This document shows, piece by piece, positions 13,391-24,231 of a stretch of 45,048 nucleotides of DNA. How positions within the stretch are numbered: position 1 is the first letter of the stretch; each line of letters opens with the position of its first letter. Source of the stretch: a virus; the IMG/VR virus record IMGVR_UViG_3300043438_003308, positions 1 through 45,048 of that record. The stretch is one strand, 5' to 3'. The translations under genes were made by a program, and so were the position numbers. The notes under the pieces are model-generated. The model searched no databases, had not been told where the DNA came from, and worked only from the letters and a program-made list of their open reading frames with translations.

Positions 13391-14962
13391 ATGAAGTTTG
13401 AAGAATTAACACCAGAGGATATTTCAACATTGTCCGAAATCTATTGGAATAAGGACATAAGTTGGGATAATCGAATGATAGAATTGAGCCAGTTTCTTAA
13501 TAAATCCGAAAGAACTGTACAAAAGTGGTTAGCTAAACTTGGAATAACCGAAAGTTCAATACAAGAGTCTCCGCAATTAATTAAAGCTAGAGAACGTAAG
13601 TTTAATAAAAAGAAAAAGCGATTTATCATCACCTGGGCTCAAAATGATACACCAGCGCATGAAGAATTTATATCAAATCTTGAAAAGTATGCAGAGCACA
13701 TTAATGCAGACATTCATGTAATTGCTGGTCGATATAAAAACCCAACTTCTGTATTTTCTGATAAGAATTATGAAACTTGGGCTGAAAGAATCGAAACTTA
13801 TCTAGATGCAGGTCGTCATGAAGTCCATAAACACATGTGGATCATGTCTGATATTAAGATTCAGCCAACTTCAGTTGATCCAATGACTGGTTTACAAGGA
13901 ATGAGCGGTATTAATTCATGCGTGTTTGGGTCGCCTAGAGTACATCTAGAAACAATTCCAGTATTGGAAGGCAATCTTCCAAAAATGATGATGACCACTG
14001 GAGCGTGTACAGTTTCTAACTATACTGACTCAAAATCAGGTAAAAAAGGCGAATTTCATCATACGCTAGGTTTTGTTGTTATTGAAATAAAGGACGTAAA
14101 TACCTTTTTTGCCAGACAAGTAACCGCAACCGAAGATGGAAATTTTACTGACCTTTATAATAGAGTTGAATATAATGAAGACTATGAAACTAGTGAAATT
14201 AGTCGAGTAAATTCAATTGCAGTTGCTGTTTTAGGAGATTTACACTATGGCCAACACGATCCACGAGTAATTTCTAAAACCCTAGATCTATTTAAGAAAT
14301 TAAAACCAGAAAATGTTATTCTACATGACGTATTTGATGGACTCTCAATTAATCATCATGAGATAAATGATCCATTTATGCAATACCGTCGAGAATTAGA
14401 CGGTTCAAATTCTTTAAGAAAGGAAATTGATGCAATGTTAAATGGGCTTGACGATTTTAAAGAATATAATGTATCAATTGTCCGAAGTAATCATGATGAC
14501 TTTTTAGATCGTTGGTTAAAATCTACTGATTGGAGAAAAGCGTCAACCTTAAAGAATTCTTTAGAGTATATGGAATACAGCGCCCTTTTATTAAAAGGAG
14601 TTGCACCAAATGGGGTTATTCCATATCTAATTAATCAAAAATTTCCTAAATTTAAAACCCTAGGAAGAAGTGATAGTCTTGTAGTAAATGGTTGGGAATT
14701 AGCTCAGCACGGAGATGTAGGTTCAAACGGTTCTCGTGGATCTTTGCTTCAATTTCGTAAATTAAATACTAAAATTATTGTAGGTCATTACCATTCGCCT
14801 GGGCGTAGGGATGGAGCACTAGCTGTCGGGACCTCTACTAAACTAAGAGTTAACTATAATGTAGGTCCAAGTGGATGGCTCCAATCACATGTAATCATTC
14901 ACCATGACGGTAAGGCTCAACACATCAACTTCATTAAGGGCGAATTTACAACCTTAACATAG
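13391..14962 (+). CDS. Metallophosphoesterase with N-terminal HTH (T5 A1-like)
   Basis: Residues about 1-55 look like a helix-turn-helix (LSQFLNKSERTVQKWLAKLG). The C-terminal half is a calcineurin-like phosphoesterase: GDLHYGQHD (first metal motif), HDVFDG and NHHE, RSNHDDFLDRW (Asn-His), QHGDVGSNGSRG and VGHYHSPGRRDG. This motif set and length (523 residues) resemble the phage T5 A1 pre-early protein, linked to host DNA degradation and shut-off. The gene stands alone on the plus strand without an ATAAATA promoter, which fits early expression. It ends before a bidirectional terminator. Catalytic class is sure, role is inferred. Confidence 0.75.
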   Translation: MKFEELTPEDISTLSEIYWNKDISWDNRMIELSQFLNKSERTVQKWLAKLGITESSIQESPQLIKARERKFNKKKKRFIITWAQNDTPAHEEFISNLEKYAEHINADIHVIAGRYKNPTSVFSDKNYETWAERIETYLDAGRHEVHKHMWIMSDIKIQPTSVDPMTGLQGMSGINSCVFGSPRVHLETIPVLEGNLPKMMMTTGACTVSNYTDSKSGKKGEFHHTLGFVVIEIKDVNTFFARQVTATEDGNFTDLYNRVEYNEDYETSEISRVNSIAVAVLGDLHYGQHDPRVISKTLDLFKKLKPENVILHDVFDGLSINHHEINDPFMQYRRELDGSNSLRKEIDAMLNGLDDFKEYNVSIVRSNHDDFLDRWLKSTDWRKASTLKNSLEYMEYSALLLKGVAPNGVIPYLINQKFPKFKTLGRSDSLVVNGWELAQHGDVGSNGSRGSLLQFRKLNTKIIVGHYHSPGRRDGALAVGTSTKLRVNYNVGPSGWLQSHVIIHHDGKAQHINFIKGEFTTLT

Positions 14963-14985: not shown

Positions 14986-15034
14986 ATGCCACATAAAAAA
15001 AGCTCTAATAATTAGAGCTTTTTTTATGTGGCAT
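14986..15034. terminator. Bidirectional terminator, 49-base perfect palindrome
   Basis: A perfect inverted repeat centred on A15010. The inner stem is GCTCTAAT/ATTAGAGC, then A-tract/T-tract pairs, and the outer clamp is ATGCCACAT/ATGTGGCAT. The A7/T7 tracts give U-runs on both strands, so it can end both the plus-strand phosphoesterase transcript and the minus-strand repair operon. Confidence 0.85.
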
Positions 15035-15041
15035 AAATTGA

Positions 15042-15125
15042 TTATAATTTACCCCAGCCTTGATGAATCATACACTTAAGTCTATATGATTCAATTAGTG
15101 CTAAAAAATTAAGTAGTTTTTTCAT
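15042..15125 (-). CDS. 27-residue peptide at the end of the repair operon
   Basis: The ATG overlaps the stop of the ligase fusion gene (ATGA), and the frame ends 8 bases before the palindrome terminator. The peptide starts MKKLLNFLALIESYRLKCM and ends GWGKL. Translational coupling and clean fit between stop and terminator speak for a real gene; its shortness leaves doubt. No function can be given. Confidence 0.4.
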   Translation of the reverse strand: MKKLLNFLALIESYRLKCMIHQGWGKL

Positions 15126-17002
15126 GATTCTATTTGGATTATTGGTTCTGGTGTAGAAAATGTTACTCCTGAAACTATTTCAGTAACTGCATCAGTTATT
15201 TGCTCATTTACACTTTCATTTAGTGATTCAATTAAGTCTTTATTTAGATTATAGAATTCTGAATGGATTTGAGATGGGGATGCTTCTTTAAATGCTGCAA
15301 AATCTCTGTCCTTAATTGACTTTAAGATTGAATCGCCAACTGTTGTTACTGGTAATTCAATTAATTTAGTATCGCGTTTAATATTTAGGTTTCTAGATCT
15401 CTTTTTTGCAAGTTCTAATTGTAGTGCTAGATCTTTTATTCTACTGGGTTCAGCTGCTATACTTAGCGGTTCAAATCCTGGTTTTATTGCTTTTAGGATC
15501 GTTTCAATATTTCCATCTTTTATCATTACATGACCGGCAATATTTTGTTTATCATGTGCAGCTAATTTAGATAATGAATTGTTTAGAGTTTCTTTCTTAA
15601 ATGGAAACATTTTTCCAGATTTTCCAGGGTGTACACATACAAATAGAGTAGGTAACCCAGTTTTTTCAGTTAATAATTTTGCACTTTTAAGATGACCTTT
15701 ATGGATTGGTTGAAAATTTGATATTAATAGATTAACCTTTTTTACTTTACGTTCTTCATTTTCAGCAACATCATATGTTTCAAAATATCCGGGAGCCTTA
15801 TCATCTCCAACAAATTCGCTAAATGAAGGAAAATAATTTTCAAATAATTGATCGCCCATTGCAACTTTTGAAAGTTTGTCAATTTGATCAATTAAATTAG
15901 CTTTCATTGCATCAGTAAATAGAGTTGAATTAACTTTGATTTTCTTTTTTCTAAAAATATTAATGAATATTCTGTAAATTTCTTTGTAATTAGGATTCTT
16001 ACTAAGTATATCAATTACAGTTGGATCATTAATTAGTTCTGGATTAATATCAAATTCAGGTCTAGTTAAAAACTGAGGTATTTGAATTTCTAAATCGTTA
16101 AATTTATCTCCATATTCCTTAATGAACTCAATAAAAAGGTGATTAATTAATGAAATGAATCGCTCATCTGCAGTTTCTCCAGAAATTGTGAAACTTCTAA
16201 GATCCGACATTCGGTAGCTTTCAATAAAATTCATTAAGTCAGTAACAATAATCCAAACATAATCATCGCTTTTCTTTTGAAACTTTTCCTGCGGTAGATT
16301 CTTTGCATTATCATAAAATACTGGATCAATAATCTTTGCTAGAGTAGACGAATCTCCAATTGGGTCCTCTTCATCAAAGAATCTAAATACAATTTCACTA
16401 ATTTCCCTATCACTTAATTCAGGTTGAGCATTTTCATCAACTATTGGATTTAATACCGATAGAATATGTTTGCTAAATGATTGAGTTTTAAATTTCTCAG
16501 CAAGCATCGGTAAGTTTGTAAATATAAATTCTTGAATTTTTACCTTTTGCTCGTCATTTAATTTTCCTTGAAATATAATAGAAGGCGGGTTAACTCCAAG
16601 TACTCCAGCCCATTTATCTAATTCCTTTTTATCATGGATAAGTTTAGAAGTTTGATAATTTTCATCAAGTACTTTGATATGACTTAGGGTCAACGGTATT
16701 TCTTTGGCTGGATTATAATCCATTCCAAATACATAATTTTCAGGTATTGAGGTTACATTATTCCGAACATTTTCAAAATGTCTAATGCCCGGCTCGTAGT
16801 ACTTACTAAGAACTCGGTCGATGTAACCAATTTTGCTGTCTTTTTTAAAGAAGTTAAAGTTATTCTGTTTTGCATCTCTTTTGGCACCAAAATAGGCACC
16901 GTCATTTTTTTCATTAATGATAACGGTCTTATTAAGAAGATTTTCTAAAAATTCTTTTCCACGTTTTTCATAAACATCTCTTAAGTGTGATAGTCCTGCC
17001 AT
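15122..17002 (-). CDS. Ligase-like nucleotidyltransferase fused to HxGH adenylyltransferase
   Basis: The N-terminal part (about 1-150) has the covalent nucleotidyltransferase motif EKNDG at 31-35 (Lys32 the likely adenylated residue) within NKTVIINEKNDGAYFGAKRD, and a motif III-like ENYVFGMDYNP (88-98), as in phage RNA/DNA ligases. The C-terminal part holds SNFQPIHKGHLKSA (428-441) with the HxGH signature (HKGH 434-437) of cytidylyl/NMN-adenylyltransferases, and VGDSILKSIKDRDF near 555-568. A long helical region (about 170-415) joins them. Length is 626. The kinase and HAD phosphatase genes lie just upstream. I infer a nucleic-acid end-sealing role; the second domain may make NAD or activate another substrate. 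Confidence 0.7.
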   Translation of the reverse strand: MAGLSHLRDVYEKRGKEFLENLLNKTVIINEKNDGAYFGAKRDAKQNNFNFFKKDSKIGYIDRVLSKYYEPGIRHFENVRNNVTSIPENYVFGMDYNPAKEIPLTLSHIKVLDENYQTSKLIHDKKELDKWAGVLGVNPPSIIFQGKLNDEQKVKIQEFIFTNLPMLAEKFKTQSFSKHILSVLNPIVDENAQPELSDREISEIVFRFFDEEDPIGDSSTLAKIIDPVFYDNAKNLPQEKFQKKSDDYVWIIVTDLMNFIESYRMSDLRSFTISGETADERFISLINHLFIEFIKEYGDKFNDLEIQIPQFLTRPEFDINPELINDPTVIDILSKNPNYKEIYRIFINIFRKKKIKVNSTLFTDAMKANLIDQIDKLSKVAMGDQLFENYFPSFSEFVGDDKAPGYFETYDVAENEERKVKKVNLLISNFQPIHKGHLKSAKLLTEKTGLPTLFVCVHPGKSGKMFPFKKETLNNSLSKLAAHDKQNIAGHVMIKDGNIETILKAIKPGFEPLSIAAEPSRIKDLALQLELAKKRSRNLNIKRDTKLIELPVTTVGDSILKSIKDRDFAAFKEASPSQIHSEFYNLNKDLIESLNESVNEQITDAVTEIVSGVTFSTPEPIIQIES

Positions 17003-17007
17003 ATTGG

Positions 17008-17616
17008 TTATTTATTAGGCTCTATTCCTAATAATGCATAGCACTCTTGATTAAAGGAATTGACTGAGGCTTCATCAAAACTATTAAAAACAATGCTTAG
17101 TTTGTTATTTTTAGCTGAATTAGTTAATTCAGTCACGGCTAACTCAATTAAATGAGCCATTAATCTTTGTTCTTCTATTGTTGAATGAGCTCCATCCCAA
17201 GTATCTTTAACTCGATCTGAATCGCCGGTTTGGCCAGCTACACTAACTACTAAAGTTTTGGAATTTGAATATAGAGTAGTATTTAATAACTTTAGGAATT
17301 CAAGTTCAGCTTTATTTCGGCTTAATCTCTTTCTTAGGATTGCCCAAGTATATGCAGATATGATTGCTCGGTCAAATATCCAAATTTTATCTTTGTATTC
17401 AGGCCTAAGATTCATTTCCATAATGGTCATAATATTACCTAAACTGAAATAGTGTAAACTTGGATCACTATCTAACTCTACTAAATCTAGAGTTTTAATG
17501 TGATCTGCGAAATAGAATTTGTAATATTCAAGCCTTGGGTCATTACAGTTTTCTATAAATTTGTTAATTAAGAATGTTTTGCCACAGTGTCTGGCGCCTT
17601 CTACAAATAATATCAT
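17008..17616 (-). CDS. P-loop kinase (polynucleotide or deoxynucleoside kinase-like)
   Basis: The ATG at 17614-17616 is chosen because it overlaps the stop of the HAD gene as ATGA; a TTG further up would overlap that gene by 61 bases. Residues 6-13 read GARHCGKT (Walker A). IWIFDRAIISAYTWA carries the D-R pair of the TMK/dNK-type kinase fold, and RVKDTWDGAHSTIEEQRL may be the lid. Between a HAD phosphatase and a ligase-like fusion, a 5'-end kinase for broken RNA or DNA is attractive, but a nucleotide kinase is equally possible from sequence alone. Confidence 0.65.
   Translation of the reverse strand: MILFVEGARHCGKTFLINKFIENCNDPRLEYYKFYFADHIKTLDLVELDSDPSLHYFSLGNIMTIMEMNLRPEYKDKIWIFDRAIISAYTWAILRKRLSRNKAELEFLKLLNTTLYSNSKTLVVSVAGQTGDSDRVKDTWDGAHSTIEEQRLMAHLIELAVTELTNSAKNNKLSIVFNSFDEASVNSFNQECYALLGIEPNK
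17009..17015 (-). promoter_or_regulatory. ATAAATA overlapping a stop codon
   Basis: AATAAATAACC on the minus strand. It overlaps the last codons (Asn-Lys-stop) of the kinase gene and lies 6 bases before the ATG of the ligase fusion. It may be a late promoter core or a translation-start element. Confidence 0.4.
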
Positions 17617-18143
17617 ATTAATTTTAATCTTTCTGTTATTGAAAATTCTTCTAGGGATCGAGCCGTATCCCAATCTATTGTAATTACTCGGCTTTTATCA
17701 ATAAAAATAAAATTAATATCGATGGTAAGCCCTGCATCTAAGAACCATGAAGTATATTTGATAATTTCCCAAAGAGAATCTTCATATATTGTAATTGAAT
17801 CAGCCTCAGTTTCTCTAATTAAGTCAATTGCAATCTCTGCTTTATCGCCTTCTCTTCCTAAAAAATAGGTCTTTTCAAACCTAATCTTATACTCTGAAAG
17901 TAGATCTAGAACATTAGGTTGGCATGCTTTAACTCTATGAGTTATCAAATAATTTAAACCGGCTGCTCTAGCTTGCTCAATAGTGTTAGCAATACCGCAA
18001 ATATTAAACTTTCGGTCAAGTGATTCAGTTGAGTCAAACCATTCGTATGGGCTCTTTCCTTTAGCTTCACTACATGTATAACTGGGAACCCTAAATAGGG
18101 TTTCATCAAAATCGAATATATTAATGTGTTGTCCTTTTTCCAT
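17613..18143 (-). CDS. HAD-superfamily phosphatase (Swiss-army-knife RNA repair HAD type)
   Basis: HINIFDFDETLFRVP (residues 6-20) is HAD motif I with the DxDET nucleophile. LNYLITHRVK is motif II (T), and a late IYEDSLWEIIKY supplies the acidic motif. The start of the protein resembles the HAD domain found in Swiss-army-knife RNA repair proteins. It leads the cassette, followed with ATGA overlap by the P-loop kinase and then the ligase fusion. In T4 the kinase and 3'-phosphatase are one protein (PseT/Pnkp); here the two activities would be separate. 176 residues. Confidence 0.7.
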   Translation of the reverse strand: MEKGQHINIFDFDETLFRVPSYTCSEAKGKSPYEWFDSTESLDRKFNICGIANTIEQARAAGLNYLITHRVKACQPNVLDLLSEYKIRFEKTYFLGREGDKAEIAIDLIRETEADSITIYEDSLWEIIKYTSWFLDAGLTIDINFIFIDKSRVITIDWDTARSLEEFSITERLKLI

Positions 18144-22602: not shown

Positions 22603-24231
22603 ATGTCAAAACAACTAGAACAACAAATAAAGTCACTCGATTTAAAACAAAATGCAATCAAGATCTTGATTAACTCATTTTATGGTGCATTTGGTAATAA
22701 GTATTTCTATTTTCATAATAATGAAATTGCTCAATCTATTACGTTACAAGGTCAAGACTTAATTAAATTTTCAATCAAAGCAATCAACCACTATTTTCAA
22801 CAAAAGTGGCACCTCGATACAGAACTTCACGAGAAATTAGGTATTTCCGGTAAAACCATTAATAAAATTGAGAAAGAAGCTGCTGTGTACACAGATACTG
22901 ATTCGGTTTATGTATGCTTTGATTATGCGATTAAATCTATTGAAGATTTTAAATTAACTGAGACCGAATCCCTTGAATTTTGTTTAGCAATTAACCGCCA
23001 TCGACTTAAAAATTATTTTGAACAGGCATTTGAAAAATATGCAGTTCACTTTAATACAGATAACCGCCAAAATTTTGAACTTGAAAATTTATCTAGGTCT
23101 GGAATTTGGTTAGCAAAGAAAAAATATATTTTAAAGGTTTCATATAAAGATAATAAGCACGAACGCCTTTTAGATAAAGAGTCATTAATTATTAAAGGCC
23201 TTGAGGCAATTCAAGCCTCATATCCAGTTTGGGCAAGACAACATTTACAAACACTTTATTCCTATCTACTTGATATTGGTTATAATATTGATTTAGAAGG
23301 CGATCTTATTCCAAAACTTGCAGCATTAAAAACTGAATGTGATGCTTTACCGGTTGAAGAAATTGCATTTAACTTTTCAGTTAGAGTTTATGAAGACTAT
23401 TTAAAAAGTTTAGTTCCACTAGTATTAGAAACTGGAATGCCAATTTACGGTAGGGCAGTTGCCTATCATAATCACTTAATTAAATCAACCAACAATCAAA
23501 AGTATCCTTTAATTCGTAGTGGTTCAAAAATTAAATTTTATTATGCAGCTAAAAATGCATATGATTTTGATATTTTTGCCTATGCTCCAGGTTCTTATCC
23601 TGAAGAAATTGCTGTACCTATGGATCGCGATCAGCAATTCTTTAGATTAATTATTGAGCCAATCAATAAATTATTGGTTGCAATTGGATTTACTGAGTTA
23701 ACTCCAAAATTAACCCGAAAAATTGAAGTAGTTAAATCCAGAAGTCGCAGCAAAGATTTTACTCCAGAAGAAACGTTCCCACTGTATTCAGTAAATACTG
23801 AAACTTTAGAATATTGTGAAATTCCAGAAAGTTGTCAAGCATTTATTGGTAACCCAGATTTACAAGTACCGCCAGAATTATTTACAACCTATATTTCAGC
23901 TATTTCTAAATATGGTTTAAATACGGTAATTGTTCCAAAACATGAGCTTGCTAAATATCGAGACCGAGTTGCAAAGAAAAAAGGTCTTGAAGTAAGTGAT
24001 CCATTTGCAATTCCAATTGAAACAATGCAAGAATACTTAAGAGCAAATGGCTGGTCTGAGATAATTAACTCGCCGAATGGAGGTTCATGGTTACAAACTG
24101 ATAAGTACGAAAAGGCAATAAAACAAGGCAAAGACTATTACAAAATGGGATATGACTTGGAGAAAGCTTACAAAAATGCCACAAAACCTGTAAATCCAAA
24201 AGCGGCAAAATTCGTAGTACATGAAGATTGA
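22603..24231 (+). CDS. gp43: Family B DNA polymerase, C-terminal half only (gp43B-type)
   Basis: The protein starts just before polymerase motif B, KILINSFYGAFGN (20-32), followed by motif C YTDTDS (96-101) and thumb-region residues. The 3'-5' exonuclease and motif A (about the first 540 residues of T4 gp43) are missing. There is no frame for them in this window: the upstream DNA is a divergent promoter and an unrelated minus-strand gene. Its own ATG and 69-base leader indicate a separate gene, as in the split polymerases (43A/43B) known in some Aeromonas T4-like phages. No intein C-terminal signature is seen. It is followed by primase with an 11-base overlap. The product must pair with the N-terminal part to work. 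Confidence 0.85.
   Translation: MSKQLEQQIKSLDLKQNAIKILINSFYGAFGNKYFYFHNNEIAQSITLQGQDLIKFSIKAINHYFQQKWHLDTELHEKLGISGKTINKIEKEAAVYTDTDSVYVCFDYAIKSIEDFKLTETESLEFCLAINRHRLKNYFEQAFEKYAVHFNTDNRQNFELENLSRSGIWLAKKKYILKVSYKDNKHERLLDKESLIIKGLEAIQASYPVWARQHLQTLYSYLLDIGYNIDLEGDLIPKLAALKTECDALPVEEIAFNFSVRVYEDYLKSLVPLVLETGMPIYGRAVAYHNHLIKSTNNQKYPLIRSGSKIKFYYAAKNAYDFDIFAYAPGSYPEEIAVPMDRDQQFFRLIIEPINKLLVAIGFTELTPKLTRKIEVVKSRSRSKDFTPEETFPLYSVNTETLEYCEIPESCQAFIGNPDLQVPPELFTTYISAISKYGLNTVIVPKHELAKYRDRVAKKKGLEVSDPFAIPIETMQEYLRANGWSEIINSPNGGSWLQTDKYEKAIKQGKDYYKMGYDLEKAYKNATKPVNPKAAKFVVHED

Follow-up and report, generated by a model that had tools for sequence, protein, structure and literature searches.

A fragment of an uncultured T4-like jumbo phage (IMG/VR record IMGVR_UViG_3300043438_003308, positions 1 to 45,048; the whole 45-kb stretch is called the window here) encodes a compact operon made up of a HAD phosphatase (HAD), a P-loop kinase (KIN), a protein that joins an RNA-ligase-like domain to a nucleotidyltransferase-like domain (LIG), and a short peptide. 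The operon is tentatively interpreted, on a judgment just short of evenly balanced, as a divergent set for the healing and sealing of nucleic acid ends, with RNA favored as the target. It would most likely act on RNA cut by host defense nucleases: HAD would remove terminal phosphates, KIN would phosphorylate the 5' end or a nucleotide-like substrate, and Lys32 of LIG would be adenylylated before the ends are sealed or left adenylylated. The C-terminal domain of LIG, which resembles nicotinamide mononucleotide adenylyltransferase (NMNAT) and has lost the catalytic residues, most likely would bind a nucleotide or an RNA end. The four open reading frames (ORFs), their coordinates, and the motifs DxDET (here DFDET), GARHCGKT, EKNDG, and HxGH (here HKGH), all proposed in an earlier sequence-only reading, were recovered. 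The genes are as follows.

17613-18143, minus strand: HAD, first gene of the operon, 176 amino acids (ORF list, conservation)
17008-17616, minus strand: KIN, P-loop kinase, 202 amino acids (ORF list, AlphaFold, Foldseek, profile match)
15122-17002, minus strand: LIG, RNA-ligase-like domain, helical middle, and nucleotidyltransferase-like domain, 626 amino acids (ORF list, model, Foldseek)
15042-15125, minus strand: peptide ORF, 27 amino acids, ATGA-coupled to LIG, clade restricted

The couplings by ATGA overlap that had been described for the operon join HAD to KIN (17613-17616) and LIG to the peptide (15122-15125), but KIN and LIG are 5 nucleotides apart and are not coupled in this way.

Because searches of PDB sequences with LIG alone or with a profile of its ligase domain yielded no ligase, the ligase assignment required a fold search. 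In the AlphaFold model of LIG (mean predicted local distance difference test [pLDDT] score of 68, mostly 70 to 89 in the folded parts), the best solved match found by Foldseek was T4 Rnl2 with an adenylated nick (E = 1.4e-6; prob 1.00), and a trypanosome RNA-editing ligase was matched as well; the TM-scores are modest because the domains were scored inside a 626-residue chain. Among the relatives of LIG, denoted here by L numbers, those that exceed the curated cutoff of PF09414 RNA_ligase (L030, L048, and L050, and the records of L096, L097, and L104, up to 42.7 bits) are 46 to 54% identical to the window LIG, which itself falls short of this family in the Pfam scan. L030 is also matched by phrog_548, annotated as "RNA ligase" (E = 4.9e-7). 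When the LIG relatives were compared by hhalign with canonical phage ligases, several of them from the same phages, the result was 93.3%, with motifs I, IV, and V aligned (EKMDG with EKLDG, IEGLVFRF with REGVVIRS, and LAKLVDPVF with FKVISNKF, respectively). The ligase fold proposed for the N-terminal part of LIG is thus borne out, as an Rnl2-type domain with the following features.

16283-17002, minus strand: Rnl2-type ligase (nucleotidyltransferase) domain, LIG residues 1-240 (Foldseek match to T4 Rnl2; PF09414 in relatives)
16898-16912, minus strand: ligase motif I, EKNDG, residues 31-35, with Lys32 (sequence, motif table)
16379-16402, minus strand: ISEIVFRF at the place of motif IV, residues 201-208 (SE in this protein, IEG in relatives)
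16316-16342, minus strand: motif V, LAKIIDPVF, residues 221-229 (motif table, hhalign)

All 22 distinct cassette LIGs compared have E31, K32, and G35 in motif I, and Lys32, Arg63, and the motif V lysine, Lys223, are invariant throughout the cassette clade, where motif V takes the form LAK(I/L)(I/V)DPxF with the lysine of Rnl2-like ligases. Lys32 is kept in every LIG adjoined by HAD and KIN and is lost in the homologs that lack these neighbors, which read ENLDG in L056, EDIQG and ENIQG in L057 and L058, and DDIPG in L105.

Some LIG homologs have further peculiarities. Three LIGs of ∼980 amino acids (L030:9737-12685, L048:9213-12155, and L050:9219-12170) have a C-terminal extension with no Pfam match that carries GEGDIAAG..NIEVKGN, reminiscent of a PD-(D/E)xK nuclease core. 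In the huge phage LR756500.1, a second KxDG protein (EKLDG; L056:4704-5966), for which no significant Pfam match was found, is encoded just upstream of the Lys-less homolog.

The HAD protein retains the catalytic residues of its superfamily: D11, D13, T68, and E121-D122 are invariant, and K101 is nearly so.

18099-18113, minus strand: HAD motif I, DFDET, residues 11-15 (sequence, conservation)

Aligned by hhalign with a bona fide HAD_SAK_1 protein of a huge phage (above the family cutoff), HAD gave 95.9%, including FDFD-TL, W..-ESL, and L-T-R, compared with 1% for a second HAD used as a contrast. The best HAD_SAK_1 score, that of relative L185 (E = 0.0015), is 18.8 bits, below the cutoff of 25.6 bits, and the weak Pfam matches of the HADs scatter among 5'-nucleotidase, acid phosphatase B, and HAD_SAK_1. 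Weakly but consistently, these comparisons suggest that HAD is closest to the Swiss-Army-Knife (SAK) RNA-repair phosphatases, in agreement with the end-repair phosphatase originally proposed. The HAD_SAK family serves RNA end cleanup in jumbo phages, where the HADs that clean ends usually belong to one of two families, SAK being the stand-alone one (PMC7824862).

The kinase has a different affiliation from the one first suggested. The following motifs were located in it.

17575-17598, minus strand: P-loop, GARHCGKT, KIN residues 7-14 (sequence, conservation)
17368-17373, minus strand: invariant DR motif, D82-R83, at the position of the DRY/ERS motifs of thymidylate kinases (TMKs) and deoxynucleoside kinases (dNKs), to which it would be equivalent

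Foldseek comparison of the KIN model (pLDDT, 86) was led by thymidylate kinases, archaeal adenylate kinases, deoxyadenosine kinase, and NadR, with E values down to 4.9e-5 (TMq of 0.65 for NadR 6gyf); the top 50 solved folds are all nucleoside or nucleotide kinases or NadR, none of them of the polynucleotide kinase (PNK) type. A profile search with KIN retrieved the deoxynucleoside kinase 6ybh (E = 0.018). Residues G7, G12-K13-T14, D82-R83, R135, and K137-D138 are invariant, so that the fold, P-loop, DR motif, and LID arginine of the TMK/dNK superfamily are all present; no named TMK/dNK family model matches KIN, and the Pfam scans gave no match to PF13671. Because the KIN fold is of the TMK/dNK/NadR type, the label "split PNKP" given to the HAD-KIN pair lacks support on the kinase side, and the PNK-type kinases (AAA_33) of related phages are located elsewhere, some beside other ligases, with one overlapping an Rnl1-type ligase gene. 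Phosphorylation of 5' ends by a fold of this kind is nonetheless possible. In L105 (7775-8233), a PNK-type AAA_33 kinase starting MQKIVPLFEEFIKDN overlaps the end of the Lys-less LIG homolog.

Beyond the ligase domain, LIG consists of the following parts.

15803-16270, minus strand: mostly helical middle, LIG residues 245-400 (AlphaFold model)
15233-15748, minus strand: NMNAT/HIGH-nucleotidyltransferase fold with degraded catalytic motifs, LIG residues 419-590 (Foldseek, motif table)
15692-15703, minus strand: HKGH, residues 434-437 (sequence, motif table)

The predicted fusion of a ligase to an HxGH nucleotidyltransferase is supported at the level of fold, the C-terminal domain matching NadM (E = 2.5e-4, Foldseek) and carrying HKGH in the window; sister clades have HPGH instead, and still others TNSH or NKAH. 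However, the second signature, ISxTxxR, is absent from every cassette LIG (VGDSILKSI in the window), and the arginine of the first motif, GRFQP, is replaced across the cassette clade. Because both are lost, NAD synthesis by the window LIG is unlikely, and the proposed coupling of nicotinamide adenine dinucleotide (NAD) metabolism to repair is not upheld. NAPRTase/NadV, the nicotinamide phosphoribosyltransferase step, had no match in the cassette-bearing records searched, several of which are fragments; such a match is present in the genomes of L056 to L058. A role of the C-terminal domain in supplying NAD to the ligase was accordingly dropped. The 462-kb phage of L056 keeps GRFQP and ISASVVR but has lost the ligase lysine, and L057 and L058 lack both this lysine and the C-terminal domain. 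Since purifying selection on the domain persists (dN/dS, the ratio of nonsynonymous to synonymous substitution rates, of 0.075 to 0.10) despite the lost motifs, the simplest inference from the sequences is that it would function in binding rather than catalysis. A separate fusion of a HAD and a HIGH-nucleotidyltransferase (473 amino acids, with PPHLGH and SGTLMR; NadR-like match, E = 5.7e-9) is encoded in record G007 (L110:592-2010, minus strand), by a phage that also has the LIG cassette; a frame of 488 amino acids in record G006 (106932-107417) is listed with it.

The order and place of HAD, KIN, and LIG are kept in dozens (∼30) of contigs from uncultured jumbo phages. The cassette is flanked on one side by uvsW/uvsY-side genes, uvsW being named from its helicase sequence and uvsY being only a candidate, and on the other side, in most contigs, by a convergent metallophosphoesterase gene. 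In these contigs, KIN never occurred without LIG except where a contig ends; in one contig group, an extra gene of ∼190 amino acids lies between KIN and LIG. The dN/dS values are ∼0.06 to 0.14 for HAD and KIN and 0.06 to 0.20 for the three LIG parts taken one by one. Given this synteny and selection, the operon is not a chance arrangement. The peptide that had been seen to end the operon is indeed there and coupled to LIG, but it is found only in the window and four close relatives (L002, L004, L005, and L114); L003, with a LIG that is 95% identical, lacks it. A role for the peptide in the operon is therefore doubtful, and it is the weakest part of the cassette.

Several findings weigh against an end-repair role. 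The window HAD is below every Pfam cutoff, the window clade alone aligns weakly to canonical ligases (hhalign, 5.2%), and KIN is TMK/dNK-like rather than PNK-like, with only its P-loop aligning to the PNK-type kinase of a related phage. Motif IV, IEG in the other cassette clades, is IEE, IDE, or ISE in the window clade according to the motif table and tree, so that the typical EG has become SE, DE, or EE, and SE in the window protein, which renders the sealing activity of the window LIG uncertain. On one reading of the sequences, the glycine may have changed to glutamate first, after which the neighboring glutamate drifted to aspartate or serine; the altered motif could represent a displaced acidic residue or, alternatively, decay. 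Such a change is no proof of inactivity, because Diplonema is reported to have a deviant Rnl2 (PMC4599027). The correlation between Lys32 and HAD-KIN amounts to a comparison of one clade with its outgroups, and there is no tRNA gene within the window. Finally, the genomes of relatives hold canonical RNA ligases, cREC, HAD_SAK_2, and PNK-type kinases elsewhere; the operon would thus be an addition to the standard RNA-repair kit, and the need for a further repair set is unexplained.

These findings leave room for other roles. Doubtful, given that Lys32, Arg63, and Lys223 are invariant in the cassette clade and that sister cassettes retain motifs I, IV, and V, is the idea that LIG is a non- or half-catalytic sensor or adaptor, a pseudo-ligase joined to a pseudo-nucleotidyltransferase that would bind nucleotides or nucleic acid ends and organize HAD and KIN or a step of replication or recombination. 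The loss of motif IV in the window clade and of the nucleotidyltransferase motifs, the complete absence of the ligase lysine in the outgroup homologs, the persistence of strong purifying selection, and the adjacency of uvsW and a possible uvsY are all compatible with it. The operon could also belong to small-molecule nucleotide or NAD-precursor metabolism. In that case, KIN would be a kinase for nucleosides/nucleoside monophosphates or for nicotinamide riboside and HAD would be a 5'-nucleotidase, while the NMNAT-like domain would be what is left of a split NadR and the ligase domain would be secondary. The best folds of KIN (thymidylate, adenylate, and deoxynucleoside kinases and NadR 6gyf), the weak match of 8 of the 12 HADs to the 5'-nucleotidase family PF06189 (best, 0.0024), and the NadM/NMNAT match of LIG fit this explanation. 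It is nevertheless unlikely: ISxTxxR and the GRFQP arginine are gone throughout the cassette clade, NAPRTase/NadV was detected in the huge phage that keeps ISASVVR (L056) and not in the cassette-bearing records searched, and the ligase domain is as strongly conserved as the rest. Far less probable is a role on DNA, in which the operon would mend DNA ends during recombination-dependent replication and so supplement the phage DNA ligase. Although uvsW and the possible uvsY adjoin the cassette, with a DNA polymerase and a primase farther off, the ligase fold is that of an Rnl2-type RNA ligase, HAD resembles the RNA-repair SAK family, and an ATP-dependent DNA ligase is already present on the closest genome contig. 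Within end repair, a more specific and rather unlikely proposal is a repair or capping complex whose RNA ligase would sense nucleotides or NAD through a converted NMN adenylyltransferase domain and whose partner for processing the 5' end (or adenylylated end) would be a TMK-type enzyme instead of polynucleotide kinase.

The literature searched contained no account of this fusion or operon, none of the three window proteins reached the cutoff of an NCBIfam family, and PADLOC gave nothing beyond P-loop noise. LIG shares with T4 Rnl2 and PF09414 the fold, motif I (EKxDG), and the motif V lysine, as well as, in its relatives, the EG of motif IV, but a long helical middle and the NMNAT-like domain replace the C-terminal domain of Rnl2, and motif IV has SE. 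Like the RNA-repair sets of jumbo phages (Rnl1/Rnl2, PNK-type kinase, HAD_SAK, and cREC; PMC7824862), the operon combines a phosphatase, a kinase, and a ligase, the HAD being SAK-like; unlike them, it has a TMK/dNK-like kinase, a HIGH-nucleotidyltransferase-like fusion, no cREC, and a separate locus beside uvsW. The pairing of domains, considered unusual in the sequence-only reading, is only partly so: in the T4-like cyanophages S-PRM1 and S-B64, a DUF6267 KxDG protein (KWDG/KYDG) gene overlaps the adjacent HIGH-nucleotidyltransferase (cytidyltransferase) gene. The cyanophage pair differs in that it comprises two genes, retains SASKxR in the nucleotidyltransferase, and is not adjoined by HAD and KIN. 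DUF6267 was rejected as the family of LIG (no match in LIG-bearing records; hhalign not significant). The L056 protein is 31% identical to LIG, with the same domain order over its whole length, but has no HAD-KIN nearby. Among viral models searched with Foldseek, BFVD A0A6J5NWC5 from an uncultured phage is 37% identical over nearly the whole of LIG (E = 2.8e-55), and a 591-amino-acid S-PM2 protein aligns over most of it. By fold, the C-terminal domain of LIG is comparable to NadM and KIN to NadR; however, the second catalytic motif and the first-motif arginine are missing, two genes are involved, and a ligase domain is added.

Downstream of the operon, between its end and a convergent gene (13391-14962), lies one further feature.

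14988-15032, no strand: long inverted repeat GCCACATAAAAAAAGCTC...GAGCTTTTTTTATGTGGC (read directly from the sequence; missing from the output of a scan)

Similar hairpins recur at the equivalent place in L003, L004, and L114, and the repeat is a probable bidirectional terminator. In L012 to L016 and L020, a variable insertion spot of ∼1 to 2.6 kb between LIG and the convergent gene contains a sugar-nucleotide epimerase-like, aminotransferase-like, or small membrane protein gene. MKxFxxFxxE-like protein starts, which we take to resemble the capsid-targeting sequence of T4 internal proteins and which may mark packaged proteins, were seen in L030 (9153-9728), L029 (9170-9721), many genes of L056 to L058 and L105, and perhaps the window peptide.

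The phage assignment comes from the T4-type portal, prohead protease, and family-B DNA polymerase encoded in the window; related contigs reach 252 to 271 kb. The polymerase ORF (22603-24231) matches only the C-terminal part of phrog_262 (positions 500 to 839 of 856), and the polymerase may therefore be split. A scan of a genome collection with LIG found a single extra copy, 92% identical, on a 254-kb contig binned with a Bacteroidetes metagenome-assembled genome, a weak hint that Bacteroidetes are the hosts.

If the end-repair interpretation is correct, a so far undescribed type of operon, its kinase drawn from another family, would join phage end repair. Because tblastn detected no relatives of KIN and HAD among 50,697 deposited phage records, the operon is a clean biochemical target. 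The ligase/nucleotidyltransferase fusions form a natural series with decay of either one active site or the other, as in L056 compared with the cassette clade, and this series allows testing of how the two domains serve one another. Should LIG prove inactive in the window clade, it would be an example of a repurposed pseudo-ligase.

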